Shown here one piece after another: positions 5,465-18,117 of a stretch of DNA of 21,653 nt. The first letter of the stretch is position 1. The number at the start of each line of letters is the position of its first letter. This DNA is from a virus. A program made the position numbers and the translations under genes. Location of the stretch: the IMG/VR virus record IMGVR_UViG_3300032285_001112, positions 1-21,653 of that record. One strand, 5' to 3'. The notes under the pieces were generated by a model. That model was not told the origin of the DNA. It saw only the letters and a list, made by a program, of their open reading frames with translations, and did no database searches.

Positions 5465-5818
5465 ATGCTTCTACAACGTCCTATATGTAAGAAATGTAAT
5501 AAAAATTATGCCGCCGTAAATTATAAGCGGAAAGATATTACATACTATAGAAGTATATGTGATGAATGTGGTAGGAAAAAAGCGAAACAAAAGCCTCGCA
5601 AAGCTAATTGGACTACCAGTGGATATAAGAAAAAAGCCACATGTGATTTATGTGGCTTTAAAAGTTTATTCCCTACACAGATAACTGTGTTTCACATTGA
5701 CGGGAACTTAGAACATATAGAACATACTAATCTACGCAGTATATGTCTAAACTGTGTAGAAGTAGTTAAGAAAAAAGATGTTACTTGGCGTCGGGGTGAT
5801 CTTGAGATTGACTACTAA
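5465..5818 (+). CDS. Small zinc-binding protein with HNH-like C-terminal half
   Basis: The 117-aa basic protein has four CxxC pairs: C8/C11, C32/C35, C60/C63 and C94/C97. The first two pairs can form one zinc knuckle. The last two frame a segment with H77-I-D-G-N81 and N89-L, the layout of HNH nucleases (CxxC, H-x-D-G-N, NL, CxxC). The usual second catalytic His after the last CxxC is not evident, because the sequence continues CLNCVEVV. It may be a degenerate or non-catalytic relative. Free-standing HNH genes in phages are often mobile, which fits its lone plus-strand position between minus-strand genes. Its 3' end overlaps the end of the dNMP kinase gene by 38 bases. No good Shine-Dalgarno precedes the ATG. 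Confidence 0.75.
   Translation: MLLQRPICKKCNKNYAAVNYKRKDITYYRSICDECGRKKAKQKPRKANWTTSGYKKKATCDLCGFKSLFPTQITVFHIDGNLEHIEHTNLRSICLNCVEVVKKKDVTWRRGDLEIDY
5630..5659 (-). terminator. Terminator for the dNMP kinase transcript, inside the opposite-strand HNH-like gene
   Basis: On the minus strand a perfect 10-bp stem (AAAGCCACAT with ATGTGGCTTT, 7-base loop) runs directly into six Ts (5630-5635), the classic intrinsic terminator form. It lies about 120 bases past the dNMP kinase stop codon. On the plus strand it sits in codons for residues 56-65 of the HNH-like protein, covering C60 and C63. Confidence 0.75.
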
Positions 5819-6440
5819 TTATCTTATACATAGTATTGTGCAATTCGTCAATGGTATCGTTATTCTCTACCATATAGTCATAGTCTAACCCAACACTACT
5901 ATATTCACTAGCATGAATTTTTAGTTTGTCTAACCTGCTCTTGCTTAGTGCCCAAGTTGTGTTACCATTTGGACCTCTGTTGAAAGACACTGCCGAATCA
6001 TACCACTCAGGATCAGGACCTCGTTTTACCCTGATAGCTATACCACCTATATTTCTAATAGCATTTACTTCATTGGCAAATCTACAATCAGTAATTACAA
6101 TATCTTCACTAGAGTTTAATAACTTATGTTCTACGCTTGCAACCCAAATATCATTATGAAAGTGATTGCGAAAAACATCAGTTCCCCAATGTTGTAGTAT
6201 CCAGCGTGGGGTAATTTCCATACCCAAACGATTACTCCACCATTCATCTTTCTTCTCTCGCCATGCTCGGCTAGCTTTTGTTGTGCCTTCTAAGTATTCT
6301 CGGTTCCAACCAAAAACTGCGGCTACAGCATCTTTCAGACTAGCTGCAAAACTGATTCGTTTAAACCCGTGATATGTAGTAAGATAGTCGGCAATAGTGT
6401 CTTTGCCTGACCCGATTAGACCGGTGATTCCGATAATCAT
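5781..6440 (-). CDS. 1: Deoxynucleoside monophosphate kinase (T4 gp1-like)
   Basis: The 219-aa product should phosphorylate dNMPs to dNDPs with ATP, feeding phage DNA synthesis. It starts MIIGITGLIGSGKDTIADYL, a P-loop (G7-x4-G12-K13-D-T) of the GKDT type found in T4 gp1. Further features are the early SFAASLKDAV helix, LQHWGTDVFRNHF (mid-protein), which parallels LMQALGTDLIVNNF in T4, and IVITDCRFANEVNAI, matching the D-x-R region of the family. The frame is open for 16 more residues upstream, but the ATG at 6440 is preferred because the P-loop strand begins there and an AGGAG lies 11 bases ahead. That AGGAG is part of a hairpin (6451-6481). The C-terminus overlaps the HNH-like gene tail to tail. 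Confidence 0.88.
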   Translation of the reverse strand: MIIGITGLIGSGKDTIADYLTTYHGFKRISFAASLKDAVAAVFGWNREYLEGTTKASRAWREKKDEWWSNRLGMEITPRWILQHWGTDVFRNHFHNDIWVASVEHKLLNSSEDIVITDCRFANEVNAIRNIGGIAIRVKRGPDPEWYDSAVSFNRGPNGNTTWALSKSRLDKLKIHASEYSSVGLDYDYMVENNDTIDELHNTMYKIISSQSQDHPDAK

Positions 6441-6503: not shown

Positions 6504-7301
6504 TTAGCCTTGTACCCATGTCAATGGCTGGCTGTAATCAACATACTTCTTCAATTCTTCAATTAGTAGTTCCATTGCAGCCTTACCTTCTGCTTTCATA
6601 GCAGTGCCATTCAGTGTTGTGCCTCCACCTGGACCTGCGATAGTACCAAATTTCTCACGGGCTTCACCTATCATAATCTTTAGTTGTGCTAAAATAAAGT
6701 CACCAATCCAAACACCAGCGCCCGGGTCTTGCAATAGTATTTCTTCTGTCTTTTGCACATCAGCCCATATCAATACACGCTCACCGGAACCTTTTGGGTC
6801 ACGAACAATACGCAATACTTTGGACACTGGGTTGAATGTGTAGGTTACATAACCGCCGAACATACGTGCTGCTAACTCAACATAACCAGCATAGAAGTCG
6901 TATGTTGCCATACCACCTGCATAATTATAGTTCAACAAGTATGTGTTTAGAATAGCACTACTGAACGGATCAAAACTGCTGCTTGATGGGCCAGTTTCTA
7001 ACCCAATCGTTCTACGGAAAATACTACGCACATTGATAAACTCAGCAGGAAGAGTGTATGTATCTACATTCTTCTCAATAGTCATTAGAATATATGATTC
7101 TTCCGTAGCAGCTTGTGCCCGTTGACGATAGACCTTGATAGCGTAGTTATACGCTGCCTGATAATGTTGAGGGTCCAATTCAATATCAATCATCCCGTCA
7201 CCAAGACGATACCTAAGATTATTGAATAATGCCTCTTTTAACTCATCTAGTGTTAGACCAGTTGGTGTAGAAAGAATAGAAGCGGTTGGGTATGTTGACA
7301 T
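6504..7301 (-). CDS. 13: Neck protein gp13 (head completion)
   Basis: The 265-aa product matches gp13 of environmental T4-like phages, a neck protein that joins gp14 at the portal to complete the head and accept the tail. Recognised stretches are AIKVYRQRAQAATEESYILM (54-73), DTYTLPAEFINVRSIFRR (80-97), DPFSSAILNTYLLN (111-124), MATYDFYAGYVELAARMFGG (131-150), RIVRDPKGSGERVLIWA (164-180) and IGEAREKFGTIAGPGGGTTLNG (211-232). T4 gp13 is slightly longer, about 309 aa. Its partner genes 14 and 15 lie on the other strand from 9430, so the usual 13-14-15 run is broken. Translation is probably controlled by the hairpin at 7304-7339. A terminator-like hairpin follows at 6451-6481. Confidence 0.85.
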   Translation of the reverse strand: MSTYPTASILSTPTGLTLDELKEALFNNLRYRLGDGMIDIELDPQHYQAAYNYAIKVYRQRAQAATEESYILMTIEKNVDTYTLPAEFINVRSIFRRTIGLETGPSSSSFDPFSSAILNTYLLNYNYAGGMATYDFYAGYVELAARMFGGYVTYTFNPVSKVLRIVRDPKGSGERVLIWADVQKTEEILLQDPGAGVWIGDFILAQLKIMIGEAREKFGTIAGPGGGTTLNGTAMKAEGKAAMELLIEELKKYVDYSQPLTWVQG

Positions 7302-7303
7302 AA

Positions 7304-7339
7304 AGTGTTACCTAATAATACTATTTATCAGGTAACACT
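7304..7339 (-). promoter_or_regulatory. Inverted repeat covering the gp13 ribosome-binding site
   Basis: The perfect 10-bp arms AGTGTTACCT (7304-7313) and AGGTAACACT (7330-7339) enclose 16 bases. On the minus strand the downstream arm, 7304-7313, holds the AGGT that stands 8 bases before the gp13 ATG, the only Shine-Dalgarno candidate. The loop holds the late octamer GATAAATA. RNA coming from the MazG operon would fold and hide the site. RNA started inside the loop would lack the upstream arm. Confidence 0.7.
7322..7329 (-). promoter_or_regulatory. Late promoter of gp13 (GATAAATA), inside the hairpin loop
   Basis: The exact GATAAATA octamer sits within the loop of the 7304-7339 inverted repeat. 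With T4 spacing, RNA would start near 7316, giving a leader of about 15 bases (ATTAGGTAACACTTT) that keeps the ribosome-binding site and loses the pairing arm. Confidence 0.68.
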
Positions 7340-7351
7340 ATGGTTCACGTA

Positions 7352-7792
7352 TTATAAGTCGCCGTCTTTACGATTTTCGCTATAAAATGCGTCAAACTGT
7401 CCACCGGGATAACGATTCTCTAGCTTACGCACATTCTCCGCAATCACATCGTTGGGATCAAGATTCAATGCACGACATGCATTAATCCAATACCACATAA
7501 TGTCACCGAGTTCACGCTTCATATGAAAAACATTATCAGCAGTCAATGCTTTACCCTGAAAAATGATCTTCTTGGGCACTTCAATAAACTCACCGCTTTC
7601 TGCCGCTAATCCGAAACATGCGGTGATTAGTAATGGAATATTAACATCAGGGCCATGTTTCATTTCCCCGTCAATTAACTCGTAGTTAGCATCAAGACGG
7701 TCTACTGTATCATGGAATGTAGTTAGGTCATTGCTTGCTTGACTTGTTACGGCTTCTACAAACTCTTGGTATTTGTTTAAATCAATTTTCAT
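7352..7792 (-). CDS. mazG: MazG-like nucleotide pyrophosphohydrolase
   Basis: The 146-aa all-alpha protein carries the metal-binding E-x-x-E...E-x-x-D signature of the MazG/all-alpha NTP-PPase family: E65-S-G-E68 in FGLAAESGEFIEVPKKII, and E94-L-G-D97 in MKRELGDIMWYW. Family members hydrolyse (d)NTPs to NMP and pyrophosphate, with roles suggested in nucleotide recycling and, in marine phages, ppGpp levels. Which substrate this one uses cannot be told from sequence. The gene is last in a run of four coupled genes. Its ATG overlaps the TGA of the 58-aa gene (ATGA) and has no Shine-Dalgarno of its own. Confidence 0.88.
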   Translation of the reverse strand: MKIDLNKYQEFVEAVTSQASNDLTTFHDTVDRLDANYELIDGEMKHGPDVNIPLLITACFGLAAESGEFIEVPKKIIFQGKALTADNVFHMKRELGDIMWYWINACRALNLDPNDVIAENVRKLENRYPGGQFDAFYSENRKDGDL

Positions 7793-8142: not shown

Positions 8143-9309
8143 TTAAAACGCTTTCAAAATAATCATATTCTCGTTAAATCTACCGTTCGGGACTGCACCC
8201 ACTGCTTTGATATCTTTAAAATATTTACGTGCAGCTGGTTTACTTCCCATCACTTCTTTGATTTGCTCACCGGGCTTACGCAATGTTTTCATCTCACTAG
8301 TATTCGCATCAAACCCTAGCAAGGTGTTACCCTTGACGCTGAACACTTTGCTGTAATCATCAGCAATATAGTGATGTAGCTTGCGCTTACCTGTATCATA
8401 GACCCACGCTTCACTGGCTCCGTGCAGCTTTGTGGGATGCACACTAATTAAATCAAGTTTAGTAGCAACATCCTTAAACAACTTCAAGTATTTCAGTTTA
8501 GCAACAATCTTCTCAACGGGCACTGCTTTGCGCTTACGTGGAGCCTTGCTTGCTTTCTTAATGCTAATGTAACTGTTCAAGTCACCTAACACACCTTCAA
8601 TGAATTTCAGCACATTACGGATCTGAATCTTACCTAAGAAACTATAACCCTCTTTCAATGACTCATCACCGTCACTTAGTCGTTGGAATTCATCTTGCTT
8701 ACGCTTCCAGATTTCAACAATGATTGGGATATGTTGCGGCATGACATTGTACTTTGCGACAATATCAACTGTCTTTTCTGACGCTTTGCCTTTAGTGACA
8801 AAATCGTCAATCATACCTTCCATTTCACCTGCGGCGTCCCGTGCTTTTTCTTTCAGAATTTCTTGAATGTTGGGTCGTGCAGTTACCGTTTCTTCTTTGG
8901 TAATGCTGGTTGCGCTAGTCTTAACTTCGGTCTCAGTCAATGACTTAACCAACCGCTTGACTTCGTTTTGAAGTGTCAGTTCTTCTTGCTCGGTCAATTC
9001 TAGACCGCGCATTGTCATACGTGCTACCCAGCACAATGTGATAATGAATTCGCTTTCATGGACCTTACGAACCGACTTAGCTTCTTCAGTTCGTTTATTG
9101 TAATCCAAATATTGACACAATAGTTCTTTTGCGTCTTTTTTAGTATAGAAACGGGTATACCATGTGAAGCCTCGGGCAAGGGCCGAGAATCGTTGTTCAG
9201 GATCGGGCTGAATTGGGAAGAAGGGTTCTTCACCCATATATTTTGTATCAGCATCACGGGGGTTGAGTGCTTTTACAAAATGATCGTCTGTATGCTTACG
9301 TGTGGCCAT
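8143..9309 (-). CDS. 388-aa conserved-type phage protein, function unknown
   Basis: No family was recognised with confidence. The N-terminal part contains aromatic GFTWYTRFYTKKDAKELLCQ (47-66). The middle (about 100-190) is charged and helical (ELTEQEELTLQNEVKRLVK, then EKARDAAGEMEGMIDDF), probably with coiled coil. A basic linker KKASKAPRKRKAVPVEK follows at about 253-269. The C-terminal third (about 285-388) looks like a separate alpha/beta unit (LHGASEAWVYDTGKRKLHHY, then KVFSVKGNTLLGFD). It is the first gene of a four-gene operon with its own sigma70-like promoter, a GGAG ribosome-binding site 7 bases before the ATG, and no late promoter. This points to early or middle expression rather than a virion role. 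Confidence 0.8.
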   Translation of the reverse strand: MATRKHTDDHFVKALNPRDADTKYMGEEPFFPIQPDPEQRFSALARGFTWYTRFYTKKDAKELLCQYLDYNKRTEEAKSVRKVHESEFIITLCWVARMTMRGLELTEQEELTLQNEVKRLVKSLTETEVKTSATSITKEETVTARPNIQEILKEKARDAAGEMEGMIDDFVTKGKASEKTVDIVAKYNVMPQHIPIIVEIWKRKQDEFQRLSDGDESLKEGYSFLGKIQIRNVLKFIEGVLGDLNSYISIKKASKAPRKRKAVPVEKIVAKLKYLKLFKDVATKLDLISVHPTKLHGASEAWVYDTGKRKLHHYIADDYSKVFSVKGNTLLGFDANTSEMKTLRKPGEQIKEVMGSKPAARKYFKDIKAVGAVPNGRFNENMIILKAF

Positions 9310-13321: not shown

Positions 13322-14731
13322 TTAAGCGTTATTGATAGTAACGATTGGATTAGGTTGACCGTTAGCAGCATTTGCAGCATAAGCTGTGTTGAAAGATGCA
13401 ATTACGTCAGGATTTACAGTATTCAATACTGCTAAACCTGTACCTGATCCAGTTGCTGTAGCAGTGAATGTAATACCAGTGATGTTACTTGCTGCACCAC
13501 ATGCTGTCCAATCTGTTGTACCTGATTGATAAATTGTGTACAATGTACCAACTGACAATGAACCAGGAGCAACTGTTGCTGGGAACAATTCAGAATTGTA
13601 ATCATTGATACTTGCAACATATTGTGTACCAGATGCAGCGTTAGTTGCAATGATAGTCATTGTGTTTGGTGTCAATGCTGTGTTAGCAACATTAGCTGTG
13701 TACACTGGATTAGTGATACCAGTAACAGTTCCTGTAACCAAGTACTTTGTTTTACCCTTTTGACGAACAATGTATCCTGCTTCCGGTAATGCTTGAATGA
13801 ATGTATCACCTGCACCACTTACACCTGTACTATTATTTGCCGCAACAGCAGTCAATACTAGTTGTTGCTGAATAGCATTTGATGTTACACTTGCGTTTGA
13901 TGTAATTGCTTGTGCTGCACCACCTGGTGTTGCAGAAACAGTGAATGCTGTTGCATTGGCAATTGTTTTAACAAAGTAAGGTGTACTTGCTGTCAATCCA
14001 CCAAACGCTGTATCAAAAGTTACTGCTCCGCCCAATACAAGTGTCTGTGCATTTCCACTTGTACGAATAACGTTACCTGTTGCAGTTGAGTTAGCGACTG
14101 CTACTGTTACATTACCAACATTGTTGGCAACTGTACCTATTAGTGTTACAGCGCCTGTTCCTGGTACTACATTAGCACCATAACCTGTTGTTCCATACTG
14201 AGCAAAGATAATTGTACCATTAGCAATATTAGCAAAGTTAGTACCTAAACCAACTAACACATTACTACTTGTGCTTGCTAATTGTGTACCTGTACCTTGA
14301 ACACCAAATGCTACATTACATAACACTTGCTTACCAACGATAGTTGTGTTACCACCAACTACGCCATATGTATTAGCGTTTGTTGCTGGGAAGCCTGCGC
14401 CACCTAGTGGGTTGTTAAAGTATGCATCAACAACATTGACTGACGCACGAACTGATTGACCAGTCGTATCAGACAACGTTGGGCTAACTTGAGGTTGAAC
14501 ACTTAACTGTGTTGAAGATACAGTAAAAGTACTAGCACCAGTAACTGCAAGTATGTAATAAATTGTGTTAGCAGTTAATCCACCTACAGTAGATGCTGTT
14601 ACGAATGACATGCCTTTTGACACACCAACTGTAGCTAAAGTTTGTGATACTGTTACGACACCAGTTGCAGCAACTGTGTCAGTGATTGTTAAGACTGTTT
14701 GAGCCTTTGCGATTTTTAGAGGACGTCCCAT
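13322..14731 (-). CDS. 469-aa repetitive virion protein (fibre or decoration type)
   Basis: The product is rich in Ala, Thr, Gly, Val and Asn with almost no charge after residue 10, typical of beta-structured tail fibre or surface proteins. Related units recur: GGLTANTIYYILAVTGASTF (50-69) and GGLTASTPYFVKTIANATAF (244-263), both followed by TVS, and a VLVGLGTNFANIANGTIIFA unit (158-177) shared in style with the 175-aa protein. Near the C-terminus LSVGTLYTIYQSGTTDWTAC (392-411), then GITFTATATGSGTGLAVL, is a module common in phage fibres. The start is firm, with AAGGAGAA 7 bases upstream and a late octamer at 14814-14821. The exact virion position is unknown. Confidence 0.8.
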   Translation of the reverse strand: MGRPLKIAKAQTVLTITDTVAATGVVTVSQTLATVGVSKGMSFVTASTVGGLTANTIYYILAVTGASTFTVSSTQLSVQPQVSPTLSDTTGQSVRASVNVVDAYFNNPLGGAGFPATNANTYGVVGGNTTIVGKQVLCNVAFGVQGTGTQLASTSSNVLVGLGTNFANIANGTIIFAQYGTTGYGANVVPGTGAVTLIGTVANNVGNVTVAVANSTATGNVIRTSGNAQTLVLGGAVTFDTAFGGLTASTPYFVKTIANATAFTVSATPGGAAQAITSNASVTSNAIQQQLVLTAVAANNSTGVSGAGDTFIQALPEAGYIVRQKGKTKYLVTGTVTGITNPVYTANVANTALTPNTMTIIATNAASGTQYVASINDYNSELFPATVAPGSLSVGTLYTIYQSGTTDWTACGAASNITGITFTATATGSGTGLAVLNTVNPDVIASFNTAYAANAANGQPNPIVTINNA

Positions 14732-14813
14732 TTGATTCTCCTTGAAATATTAGTGAGTTCTAGTCACTACGCGGCGGGGACCGCATAAACTCGCCGAATG
14801 CGAATGTATAATA

Positions 14814-15410: not shown

Positions 15411-18089
15411 TTAAAGTCTGCCAACCGCTACTTCAATAACGCCTTCACCTTCAAAGTTTTCTAATGCTTTTCCTATTACTGAACCAATATATGGGTGAAT
15501 CATTGGTCTAGCATATCCGTCACCAGCACTCACAAGCATGTCACCCTTATGTATTGTTCCACGAACTTTAACTGGTACACGACCTTGCAATGCTAATGCT
15601 ACAACATGTTCACCTTGACATTGTGAATTCATTACATACGCAGGGTTAGTTGATACTACACCTGCTACTTTGGTTGTGCCATCTTCAGCTATTGTAACTT
15701 CTTTCTCGCCACCAAACTCTACAACTGTGCCTGGCTCATATGGCTTATCTGCTTCGTAGTATTCTGCTAAGTCAGCGTATGTTGCAGTTAGTTTACTACC
15801 TGCACTTAATCCCCAATTACCAGTAATAGTACCTGCTGTAGTATTTGCACCTGTTGTTAGTGCTGTGGCACCAACTGTACCGGCAAATGTTGGTAAGTAT
15901 GCTGCGACATTTGAATTTGAATATGAACCGGCAAAACTTATAGATACCCCGTTAGCATAGTAATAGTTGTCAGTTTTAATACCACCAGTAGATACATTGG
16001 CAGAAACTGTAACTGATGTTAGTGTTCCAACGCTAGTAATATTAGGTTGTGCTCCGGTTGCTAACGTTCCTGTTATAACGCCTGTGTTAGCAGTTAAGTT
16101 AACTGCTGTTAGTGTACCATTAACTCCTAAACTAGTTAATGTCCCGACACTAGTAATATTAGGTTGTGCGGCTGTTGTTACTGTTCCTGCGCTAGTAGCT
16201 GCACCGCTTAATGCACCCACAAACGTTGTTGCTATGAATGCACCATTTGCTATATTAGCAGAGAACGCTGTGTTTGAACCTTGGGCATAGTTAGCTACAG
16301 CAGTTCCCGGAACAAATGCAGGATACCAAATCCCTGTTGTCAATGCGGCCATTGCAGTGTAGTCAGTTACATTTGCATATGAAACATTTAGATTATTAAC
16401 ACGAGTGGTGCTTGCTATTGTTAATGGTGCTGTACCAGTGGCAACATTTGATTCTAATATACTAGCAATAACTCTACCCGATGTACCCAAATTACCTACA
16501 TTAGCATTACCAGTACCGGTATTGAATGTATAATTAGAAACGTTAACCCCTGTATTAGAGATTGTCATTACTGTATTACTAGCAGAAGTAAATGCTATAT
16601 TTCCATTTAAGGTGATAGCAATGTTACTGTTACCATTAGCCTGCGGGCCCACTAGGTTTGCCGCAGACACGTTGCCAGTAAATACACCAATGCCAGAACC
16701 AATGTTACCTACATTAGCGTTACCGGTACCTGTATTTAATGTGCCTGCTACGTTAACACCAGTACCAGTAACAACAATTATATTTGCATTGCCCCCGGCA
16801 GTAATATTAATATTACCAGATGCTGCGGGTATTGCTATATTACTTGTGCCATTTGCAAATGTACCAATGAGATTACCACTTGTTGTATTACCCGTAACCG
16901 CAAGACTTAATAAGGTACCAACACTTGTTATGTTAGGTTGAGCATTAGTTGTTAATGTTCCGGTATATAATGTTGAAATCAATGCACCAGTTGCTGCATT
17001 AAATGATAGATTTGCATTTGAACTTAATGATAAGTTACCTGTAGTATTTGCGTTAACAAACGTTGGATAGAATGTTCCACTAGTTCTAGTAGTAACTACA
17101 CCGTAGTCACTTACATTAGCACGTGCCACATATAAATTAGGTACTATTGAAGTACTAGTTACAGTTAAAGGTGCTGTACCAGTTGCAACATTTGAAACTA
17201 ATATAGGAGCAGTAATACTTGTTACTGCATTTAAGTTTCCAGTTACAATATTACCAGTTGATACAGTTAATGTGTTTGTAAGTTTATTGTATGTGAAACT
17301 AGTATTACCTGTTATAACACCAGTATCATTGAATTGCACAGTATTAGCTGAACTACTACCTACTGTTCCGCCACCACCTGCACCTGTACTTGAAGTAGCA
17401 ATAGCATTAGGAGAGTTTGTATATGTTAATCCGGCGCCATTGACCGGACTTCCTGTTCCTTGAGAGGAATACAGTGAAACATTACCGGTAGTAGGGAAAT
17501 TAGATGCTAATTGAACATAAAAAGTTTGTCCGTTAACGATACTGTTAGATGCACCAGTGACCCCTGAAATTGTAATTGCAGCATTATTTGTGTATGGCGT
17601 AGTATTTGCTACTGTCATCACAATTGGATTAGCATTTGATAATGCTATTATTTTTGTATACAATGTACCTTGTGGAGTCCAAGATAAATTACCAGCACCA
17701 TCGGTCTGTAACACATAACCCGGCGCAGAAGCACCAGTCATGGAAAGATTTGATACATTTCCTAATTGAAGTTTACCGCCACTAAATTGACTAGTATTTC
17801 CTGAATAGTTTTCCCACGTATCGGTACTTGACACATATGTTAATATTTGGCCGTTTTGAGGTCCTACAATATTAAAATTTCCACCACCACTACCGTTTAC
17901 CTGACTAAAACTAATATCAGAATATGAAGTTAATACTTCAACATTTTCATCGGTGTAGTTGTTGCCGGTTCTGCCTATAAATAGACGATTTGTGTCGGTT
18001 GCCCAGCCAAATTCGGCATTATCTAATTGTGGTAAGTCAACTAGATTACCTGCTCTTTGTTGGATTTTACTGATTTGTACTATGGCCAT
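15411..18089 (-). CDS. Large tail fibre protein
   Basis: The 892-aa product probably recognises the host surface. Residues 1-45 (MAIVQISKIQQRAGNLVDLP, then AEFGWATDTNRLFIGR) match the short N-terminal attachment module common to phage fibres (major-tropism-determinant type). Residues about 100-770 are a low-charge Asn/Thr/Gly/Ala shaft with internal repeats: AQPNITSVGTL three times (383, 641, 680), a 47-residue unit twice (299-345, 547-593) and NTGTGNANVGN twice (452, 523). From about 770 the composition changes sharply to charged sequence (YADLAEYYEADKPYEPGTVV, then VAGVVSTNPAYVMNS), resembling the C-terminal chaperone or Peptidase_G2-like domains of fibres that trimerise and may self-cleave. 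Its start codon lies in a hairpin (18088-18117). Confidence 0.88.
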   Translation of the reverse strand: MAIVQISKIQQRAGNLVDLPQLDNAEFGWATDTNRLFIGRTGNNYTDENVEVLTSYSDISFSQVNGSGGGNFNIVGPQNGQILTYVSSTDTWENYSGNTSQFSGGKLQLGNVSNLSMTGASAPGYVLQTDGAGNLSWTPQGTLYTKIIALSNANPIVMTVANTTPYTNNAAITISGVTGASNSIVNGQTFYVQLASNFPTTGNVSLYSSQGTGSPVNGAGLTYTNSPNAIATSSTGAGGGGTVGSSSANTVQFNDTGVITGNTSFTYNKLTNTLTVSTGNIVTGNLNAVTSITAPILVSNVATGTAPLTVTSTSIVPNLYVARANVSDYGVVTTRTSGTFYPTFVNANTTGNLSLSSNANLSFNAATGALISTLYTGTLTTNAQPNITSVGTLLSLAVTGNTTSGNLIGTFANGTSNIAIPAASGNINITAGGNANIIVVTGTGVNVAGTLNTGTGNANVGNIGSGIGVFTGNVSAANLVGPQANGNSNIAITLNGNIAFTSASNTVMTISNTGVNVSNYTFNTGTGNANVGNLGTSGRVIASILESNVATGTAPLTIASTTRVNNLNVSYANVTDYTAMAALTTGIWYPAFVPGTAVANYAQGSNTAFSANIANGAFIATTFVGALSGAATSAGTVTTAAQPNITSVGTLTSLGVNGTLTAVNLTANTGVITGTLATGAQPNITSVGTLTSVTVSANVSTGGIKTDNYYYANGVSISFAGSYSNSNVAAYLPTFAGTVGATALTTGANTTAGTITGNWGLSAGSKLTATYADLAEYYEADKPYEPGTVVEFGGEKEVTIAEDGTTKVAGVVSTNPAYVMNSQCQGEHVVALALQGRVPVKVRGTIHKGDMLVSAGDGYARPMIHPYIGSVIGKALENFEGEGVIEVAVGRL
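16020..16943 (-). repeat. Three copies of an 11-residue repeat in the fibre shaft
   Basis: The codons for AQPNITSVGTL occur at 16020-16052, 16137-16169 and 16911-16943. The protein is identical in all three, but the DNA differs at synonymous sites, so these are old repeats kept by selection rather than fresh duplications. They probably mark successive shaft turns. Confidence 0.8.
16311..17195 (-). repeat. Two copies of a 47-residue fibre module
   Basis: Positions 17055-17195 and 16311-16451 code for related units: both begin SNVATGTAPLT, share N-L-x-V-x-x-A-N-V-[ST]-D-Y in the middle and end in TG/SG-x-[FW]-YP-x-FV. The middle is diverged. Each is followed about 40 residues later by the AQPNITSVGTL repeat, so a larger composite unit has been duplicated. 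Confidence 0.75.
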
Positions 18090-18117
18090 AAGTGTAATTC
18101 TTCACGTTTACACTTAT
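18088..18117 (-). promoter_or_regulatory. Inverted repeat covering the fibre start codon
   Basis: The perfect 10-bp arms ATAAGTGTAA (18088-18097) and TTACACTTAT (18108-18117) enclose a 10-base loop. On the minus strand the downstream arm includes the A and T of the fibre ATG, and the loop carries GAAGAA, the likely ribosome-binding site. The upstream arm overlaps the late octamer. A late-promoter RNA would keep only about two bases of that arm. Confidence 0.7.

Follow-up and report, generated by a model that had tools for sequence, protein, structure and literature searches.

The gp13 leader and its operon

The window, the whole 21.7-kb viral record analyzed here, carries on its minus strand a run of genes that ends in a virion gene. 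The run opens with a gene for a 388-aa protein of phrog_11903 with no assigned function (8143..9309), followed by a mazG pyrophosphatase gene (7352..7792) and, immediately downstream of it, a gp13-like neck protein gene (6504..7301; head-tail adaptor Ad2, phrog_211, with homologues named neck protein). A deoxynucleoside monophosphate kinase gene follows (5781..6440), for which ATG 6440 rather than TTG 6488 is the likely start. Twelve nucleotides separate the mazG stop codon from an inverted repeat whose 5' arm, AGTGTTACCT (7339-7330), is the anti-Shine-Dalgarno side of a stem that runs on through 7325, and whose 3' arm, AGGTAACACT (7313-7304), contains the gp13 Shine-Dalgarno (SD) sequence AGGT (7313-7310), 8 bases before the gp13 ATG (7301-7299). 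The late promoter octamer GATAAATA (7329-7322) lies within the 16 bases between the arms, directly after the 10-bp 5' arm, so that the minus strand reads AGTGTTACCT, GATAAATAGTATTATT, AGGTAACACT, TT and the gp13 ATG. The initial annotation had placed the arms, the octamer and the AGGT-ATG spacing at these positions, and all proved correct on re-reading the sequence. By T4 late promoter geometry, in which the 6th base past the octamer is the first transcribed, transcription here is predicted to begin at 7316, 3' of the entire 5' arm.

Upstream of the 388-aa gene stands a sigma-70-type promoter, TTGACAACAAATGGTCCCTGTGCTACAAT (9369-9341, minus strand), which matches the consensus at 11 of 12 positions and belongs to an early-promoter family, TTGACATTAAATGGTTTTGGGTATATAAT, with 11 copies in G001, the largest relative record, and 15 in G002 against 0 expected. 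In both of these records one family copy directly precedes the 388-aa gene heading the mazG/gp13 operon, the same place as in the window. The early promoters of G001 and G002 (L198-L218) are near-identical, TTGACATTAAATGGTTTTGGGTATATAATA-like sequences. A terminator scan found no strong terminator between the 9369-9341 promoter and gp13, and the earlier statement that gp13 lies directly downstream of an early-type operon is supported by this same-strand promoter and apparently uninterrupted path. The naming of that operon as sigma70/MazG stands in part: its promoter is sigma-70-type and mazG is present, but the 388-aa gene has no sigma-factor family match. A gp55-like late sigma is encoded in G001 (E 6.9e-74); the partial records G002, G003 and G005 yielded none, and the window is itself a fragment.

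RNA of the minus strand from 7339 to 7304 is predicted to fold into 15 pairs, the 10 perfect ones plus five more, one of them G.U, around a 6-nt loop, with a free energy of -18.4 kcal/mol (z -6.6) that none of 200 shuffled sequences equaled. The annotated perfect 10-bp repeat is therefore present, but the octamer is not confined to a 16-base loop: its GATAA pairs with TTATT to form the additional five pairs, so the stem is 15 bp long and the octamer lies partly inside it. Rfam holds no family matching this hairpin. Perfect 10-bp inverted repeats on their own are not rare in the window, and the octamer by itself is weakly significant, since its five copies, against 1.8 expected, are reached or exceeded in 7 of 100 shuffles; four of the five closely precede virion-type genes. 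What goes beyond chance is the coincidence of the repeat with the octamer and the SD and, above all, its conservation. Another copy of GATAAATA, at 14821-14814, is followed after about 8 nt by an Rfam freshwater-2 RNA (RF02980, 61.9 bits; 14729-14805, minus strand), possibly the start of a late transcript.

We took as the measure of masking the predicted free-energy cost of holding the SD unpaired, in the long read-through RNA and in a late RNA modeled with the 6th base past the octamer as its first. For gp13 this cost is 15.2 kcal/mol in the read-through RNA and 1.9 in the late RNA; the same calculation for T4 gene e gives 13.2 and 1.6, and the ordinary T4 leaders of ipII and ipIII give 0.6 and 1.1 kcal/mol. 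The predicted costs are at the level of T4 gene e, and to that extent they bear out the proposal that read-through RNA hides the gp13 ribosome-binding site and late RNA exposes it.

Conservation of the hairpin in relatives

A protein search recovered 80 loci with gp13 82-98% identical, and 580 relatives in all. Nearly all of these loci retain the stem, and the octamer is present in every readable leader; among some 38 different leaders of uncultured relatives the octamer is kept and the stem mostly so, and across the 37 that were aligned the octamer is invariant. Covariation between the arms in these 37 leaders scores 0.174 against 0.111 in shuffles, a value reached by none of 500, and 83% of cells are paired against at most 57% when the register is slid. 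Changes on both sides occur at 7 stem pairs, so the paired changes that the initial annotation had looked for in related phages do exist. Raw counts of the pattern ACCTGATAAATA-N8-AGGT were not used as evidence, because many coding stretches match it by chance. Searched against phage records at the DNA level, the region gave matches to mazG only.

Is the element selected as RNA or as DNA? Over 38 different arm pairs, 13 of 102 places show a transition that gives G.U in the sense RNA, against 3 of 111 for A.C (p 0.008, uncorrected for relatedness); because the leaders are related the counts are not independent, and the p value is merely a guide. The asymmetry holds for the six inner pairs, which were chosen after the outer pairs had been seen to be poorly conserved, and a count over the whole arm of nine pairs shows none (14 versus 19). 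Paired changes together with tolerance of G.U and not of A.C favor selection on the sense RNA over a DNA palindrome, and the sequence record points to a gp13 hairpin selected as sense RNA. A DNA operator that binds a dimeric regulator or an endonuclease and overlaps the late promoter would also place a repeat around that promoter, and I-TevI of T4 is known to repress itself at such a site (PMC2988022). A binding site would be expected to keep its sequence, but here the arms vary while pairing stays, the mismatch tolerance follows the sense strand, and unrelated phages carry unrelated arms; we regard an operator as most improbable.

A few lineages keep the octamer and lose the pairing, the pattern that the initial annotation had named as counting against its reading, but most keep the stem. 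Those that lose it have an inserted gene or an insert of about 400 nt immediately upstream, and some form a weaker substitute. In the L037, L030 and L073 groups the octamer and SD are retained and the usual 5' arm is lost behind roughly 400 nt of apparently non-coding, apparently structured sequence (about 770-1224 in L037), which has neither an Rfam nor a tRNA match. In L073 the SD pairs instead with a different stretch upstream, and the same happens more weakly in L037 and L030, where opening the SD is predicted to cost 4.4 and 5.9 kcal/mol.

Predicted masking of leaders across genes and phages

We compared every gene closely preceded by a [GT]ATAAATA octamer in six records by its gain in SD access from the long to the late RNA (4 such genes in the window, 18 in G001, 10 in G002, 9 in G003 and 8 in G006). 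The strongest mask is that of gp13 in five of the six: its gain is 13.3 kcal/mol in the window (next gene 2.7), 13.0 in G001 (7.0), 9.8 in G002 (5.4), 12.3 in G003 (7.0) and 9.2 in G006 (5.0). In the sixth, G005, mazG and gp13 are separated by an inserted tail-fibre-like gene, and it is this gene that gains 15.0 kcal/mol, gp13 only 3.3. A similar exchange, with the strong hairpin on an inserted fibre-like gene rather than on gp13, is found in the L147 and L189 groups; in L050 and L033 the inserted fibre-like gene has no masking hairpin with a late promoter and gp13 retains its own hairpin. L154, L158 and L106, with weak hairpins at both the fibre gene and gp13, are the exception.

Some hairpins at other late promoters are arranged differently. 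At 18088-18117 of the minus strand, a 10-bp hairpin (TAAGTGTAA/TTACACTTA) lies between a late octamer and the ATG of a tail-fibre-like gene with the SD in its loop, and is retained in G001, G002, G003 and G005. Hairpins that enclose GATAAATA also occur before genes whose names, read from sequence, are putative: a small HNH-like gene (L102 2876), baseplate gp6 (L123 154) and portal gp20 (L108 4050), the last with its SD-like arm distant from the ATG. Leaders of gp6 in other phages carry such hairpins despite a late-type gene upstream, so the design is not confined to early/late borders.

These arrangements bear on whether the hairpin serves gp13 or the gene before it. Stable RNA stems can block exonucleases, and a hairpin beginning 12 nt past the mazG stop might mainly end or protect the mazG message, as terminator, 3' stabilizer or nuclease processing site, with masking of gp13 a side effect. 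The stem, however, has few G-C pairs and no T-run, and thus lacks the G+C-rich stem followed by a T-run of an intrinsic terminator; the terminator scan omits it yet lists a hairpin at 6482-6450; and the element tracks the gp13 SD and the octamer, is found ahead of an inserted fibre gene and comes after a variety of upstream genes, which makes a role centered on mazG quite unlikely. Translational coupling is another possibility: ribosomes finishing mazG would open the stem, and gp13 would be made early in controlled amount. A ribosome terminating 12 nt before the 5' arm could touch the base of the stem, but it would not reach the SD, and relatives with other upstream genes and other gaps (34-69 nt, and 236 nt in L013) have the same hairpin, so we give coupling very little credence.

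Homologues of gp13 at 23-41% identity were examined in cultured jumbo phages. RaK2, Muenster, PBECO4, SD-2_S15, Munch, fENko-Kae01, XaC1, Hallingskeid, XbC2, CBB, GAP32, BF and Kaldavass are all predicted to have at gp13 a strong stem that carries a TAAATA motif on the 5' side and holds the SD in the 3' arm, and for those of them that were computed, opening the SD costs 13-19 kcal/mol. Leaders of the RaK2/GAP32/PBECO4/Munch type occupy the same position before the same gene as in the window, whereas their arm sequences are unrelated and their octamer starts 26-31 nt from the SD rather than 15-19 as in the window's group. In CBB, ATAAATA late motifs have been predicted before structural genes and gp13 is a virion protein (PMC5259590); the motif of the RaK2/GAP32 group is mostly CTAAATA, one base from it, and GAP32 structural genes are preceded by such late motifs, one of them GCTAAATA. 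The annotated gp13 start of RaK2 (L193 2441) falls within the hairpin, and the ATG 12 nt downstream, preceded by GAGGTG, is the more likely one.

In the hairpin-bearing jumbo phages, the same-strand genes that precede gp13 appear to be of early type (nudE, glutaredoxin, macro domain). Phages whose upstream gene lies on the opposite strand have little or no mask, with SD-opening costs of 1.2 kcal/mol in Atu_ph07, 4.4 in SCTP-2 and 6.4 in Vibrio 2.275, or, in Phosso, an intermediate one (8.6). PA5oct has a same-strand upstream gene yet a weak mask (4.4), and its uncultured relatives show a third arrangement, in which an outer stem pairs promoter GCTGAT with ATGTCAGC at the start codon.

A proposed timing switch

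In T4 gene e, a stem that encloses a late promoter and masks the SD has been demonstrated as a control mechanism (PMC3014915), and for I-TevI, I-TevII, I-TevIII, segB and mobE a hairpin in early or middle read-through RNA masks the ribosome-binding site that late RNA, without the 5' arm, leaves free (PMC2988022). The targets listed in reviews are e, soc, 49, further T4 genes and the endonucleases (PMC3014915, PMC2988022), and the precedents given in the initial annotation (e, soc and I-TevI) agree with these sources. We propose that gp13 is controlled in the same way. Early RNA from 9369-9341 would cross the 388-aa gene and mazG into gp13 bearing both arms, and would fold at 7339-7304 with the gp13 SD unavailable; late RNA polymerase with the gp55-like sigma would then start at the octamer inside the hairpin, near 7316, and the resulting mRNA, with a leader of about 15 nt and no 5' arm, would be translated. 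We infer that early RNA reads through into gp13, that the octamer serves as a promoter and that the two RNAs are translated differently.

Given the parts, the fold predictions, the paired-change conservation, the family of early promoters and the tie to gene context, all of which can be read in the sequences, the gp13 leader very probably acts as a timing switch at the RNA level, of the kind known from T4 gene e, and each step by which the initial annotation had the neck protein kept silent early has sequence evidence behind it. As in gene e, and also in soc and gene 49, the octamer stands between the arms of an SD-masking stem; gene e likewise has nudE upstream on its strand, and its predicted opening costs are on a par with those of gp13 in the window. 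The SD sits in a stable stem (-18.4 kcal/mol, 15.2 to open, both predicted), the octamer is placed so that late RNA would lack the 5' arm if it starts at 7316 as assumed, same-strand early genes lie upstream with read-through possible, and a gp55-type late sigma is encoded in the relative G001; in every feature testable from sequence, the gp13 element belongs with T4 e, soc, 49 and I-TevI. Unlike e, soc and 49, its target is a virion assembly gene, its sequence is unrelated to those of T4, and it is held by covariation across a broad uncultured group; unlike the I-TevI, I-TevII, I-TevIII, segB and mobE elements, it is associated with no endonuclease or intron and shows no sign of an operator for its product. 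Among open-licence papers, jumbo phages included, we found no report of this gp13 switch.

The gap between gp13 and the kinase gene holds a second conserved, terminator-like hairpin (6482-6450, minus strand), with TATAAT (6471-6466) in its 5' arm and loop, the kinase SD AGGAG (6456-6452) in its 3' arm and, in many cases, a T-run after it. It is conserved in 22 leaders, where covariation scores 0.315 and shuffles give 0.206. Genome-wide there is no enrichment of TATAATA-type motifs, so that conservation alone argues for a promoter inside this hairpin, which may be a terminator, a masked ribosome-binding site with an internal promoter, or both. A terminator-like hairpin at this place speaks against the idea that early RNA has to run through gp13 before it gets to the kinase gene. 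It is possible, though doubtful, that promoter-in-hairpin switches with opposite timing flank gp13 on both sides, with gp13 made from late RNA only and the kinase only from its own earlier promoter, the sigma-70-type TATAAT in the 6482-6450 stem, its SD being hidden in RNA that runs through gp13; the gene bearing the late switch would then change with the early/late border when genes are gained or lost.

Accounts of the T4 switch usually center on lysozyme and the homing endonucleases, which would be harmful if expressed early. At gp13 the proposed switch would act on a virion neck gene, selected in a large uncultured group and with versions of other sequence in cultured jumbo phages, which suggests that positioning a late gene behind an early operon follows a general rule. 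Such a rule is testable in cultured phages, and it would offer annotators a sequence signature for the borders between early and late genes.
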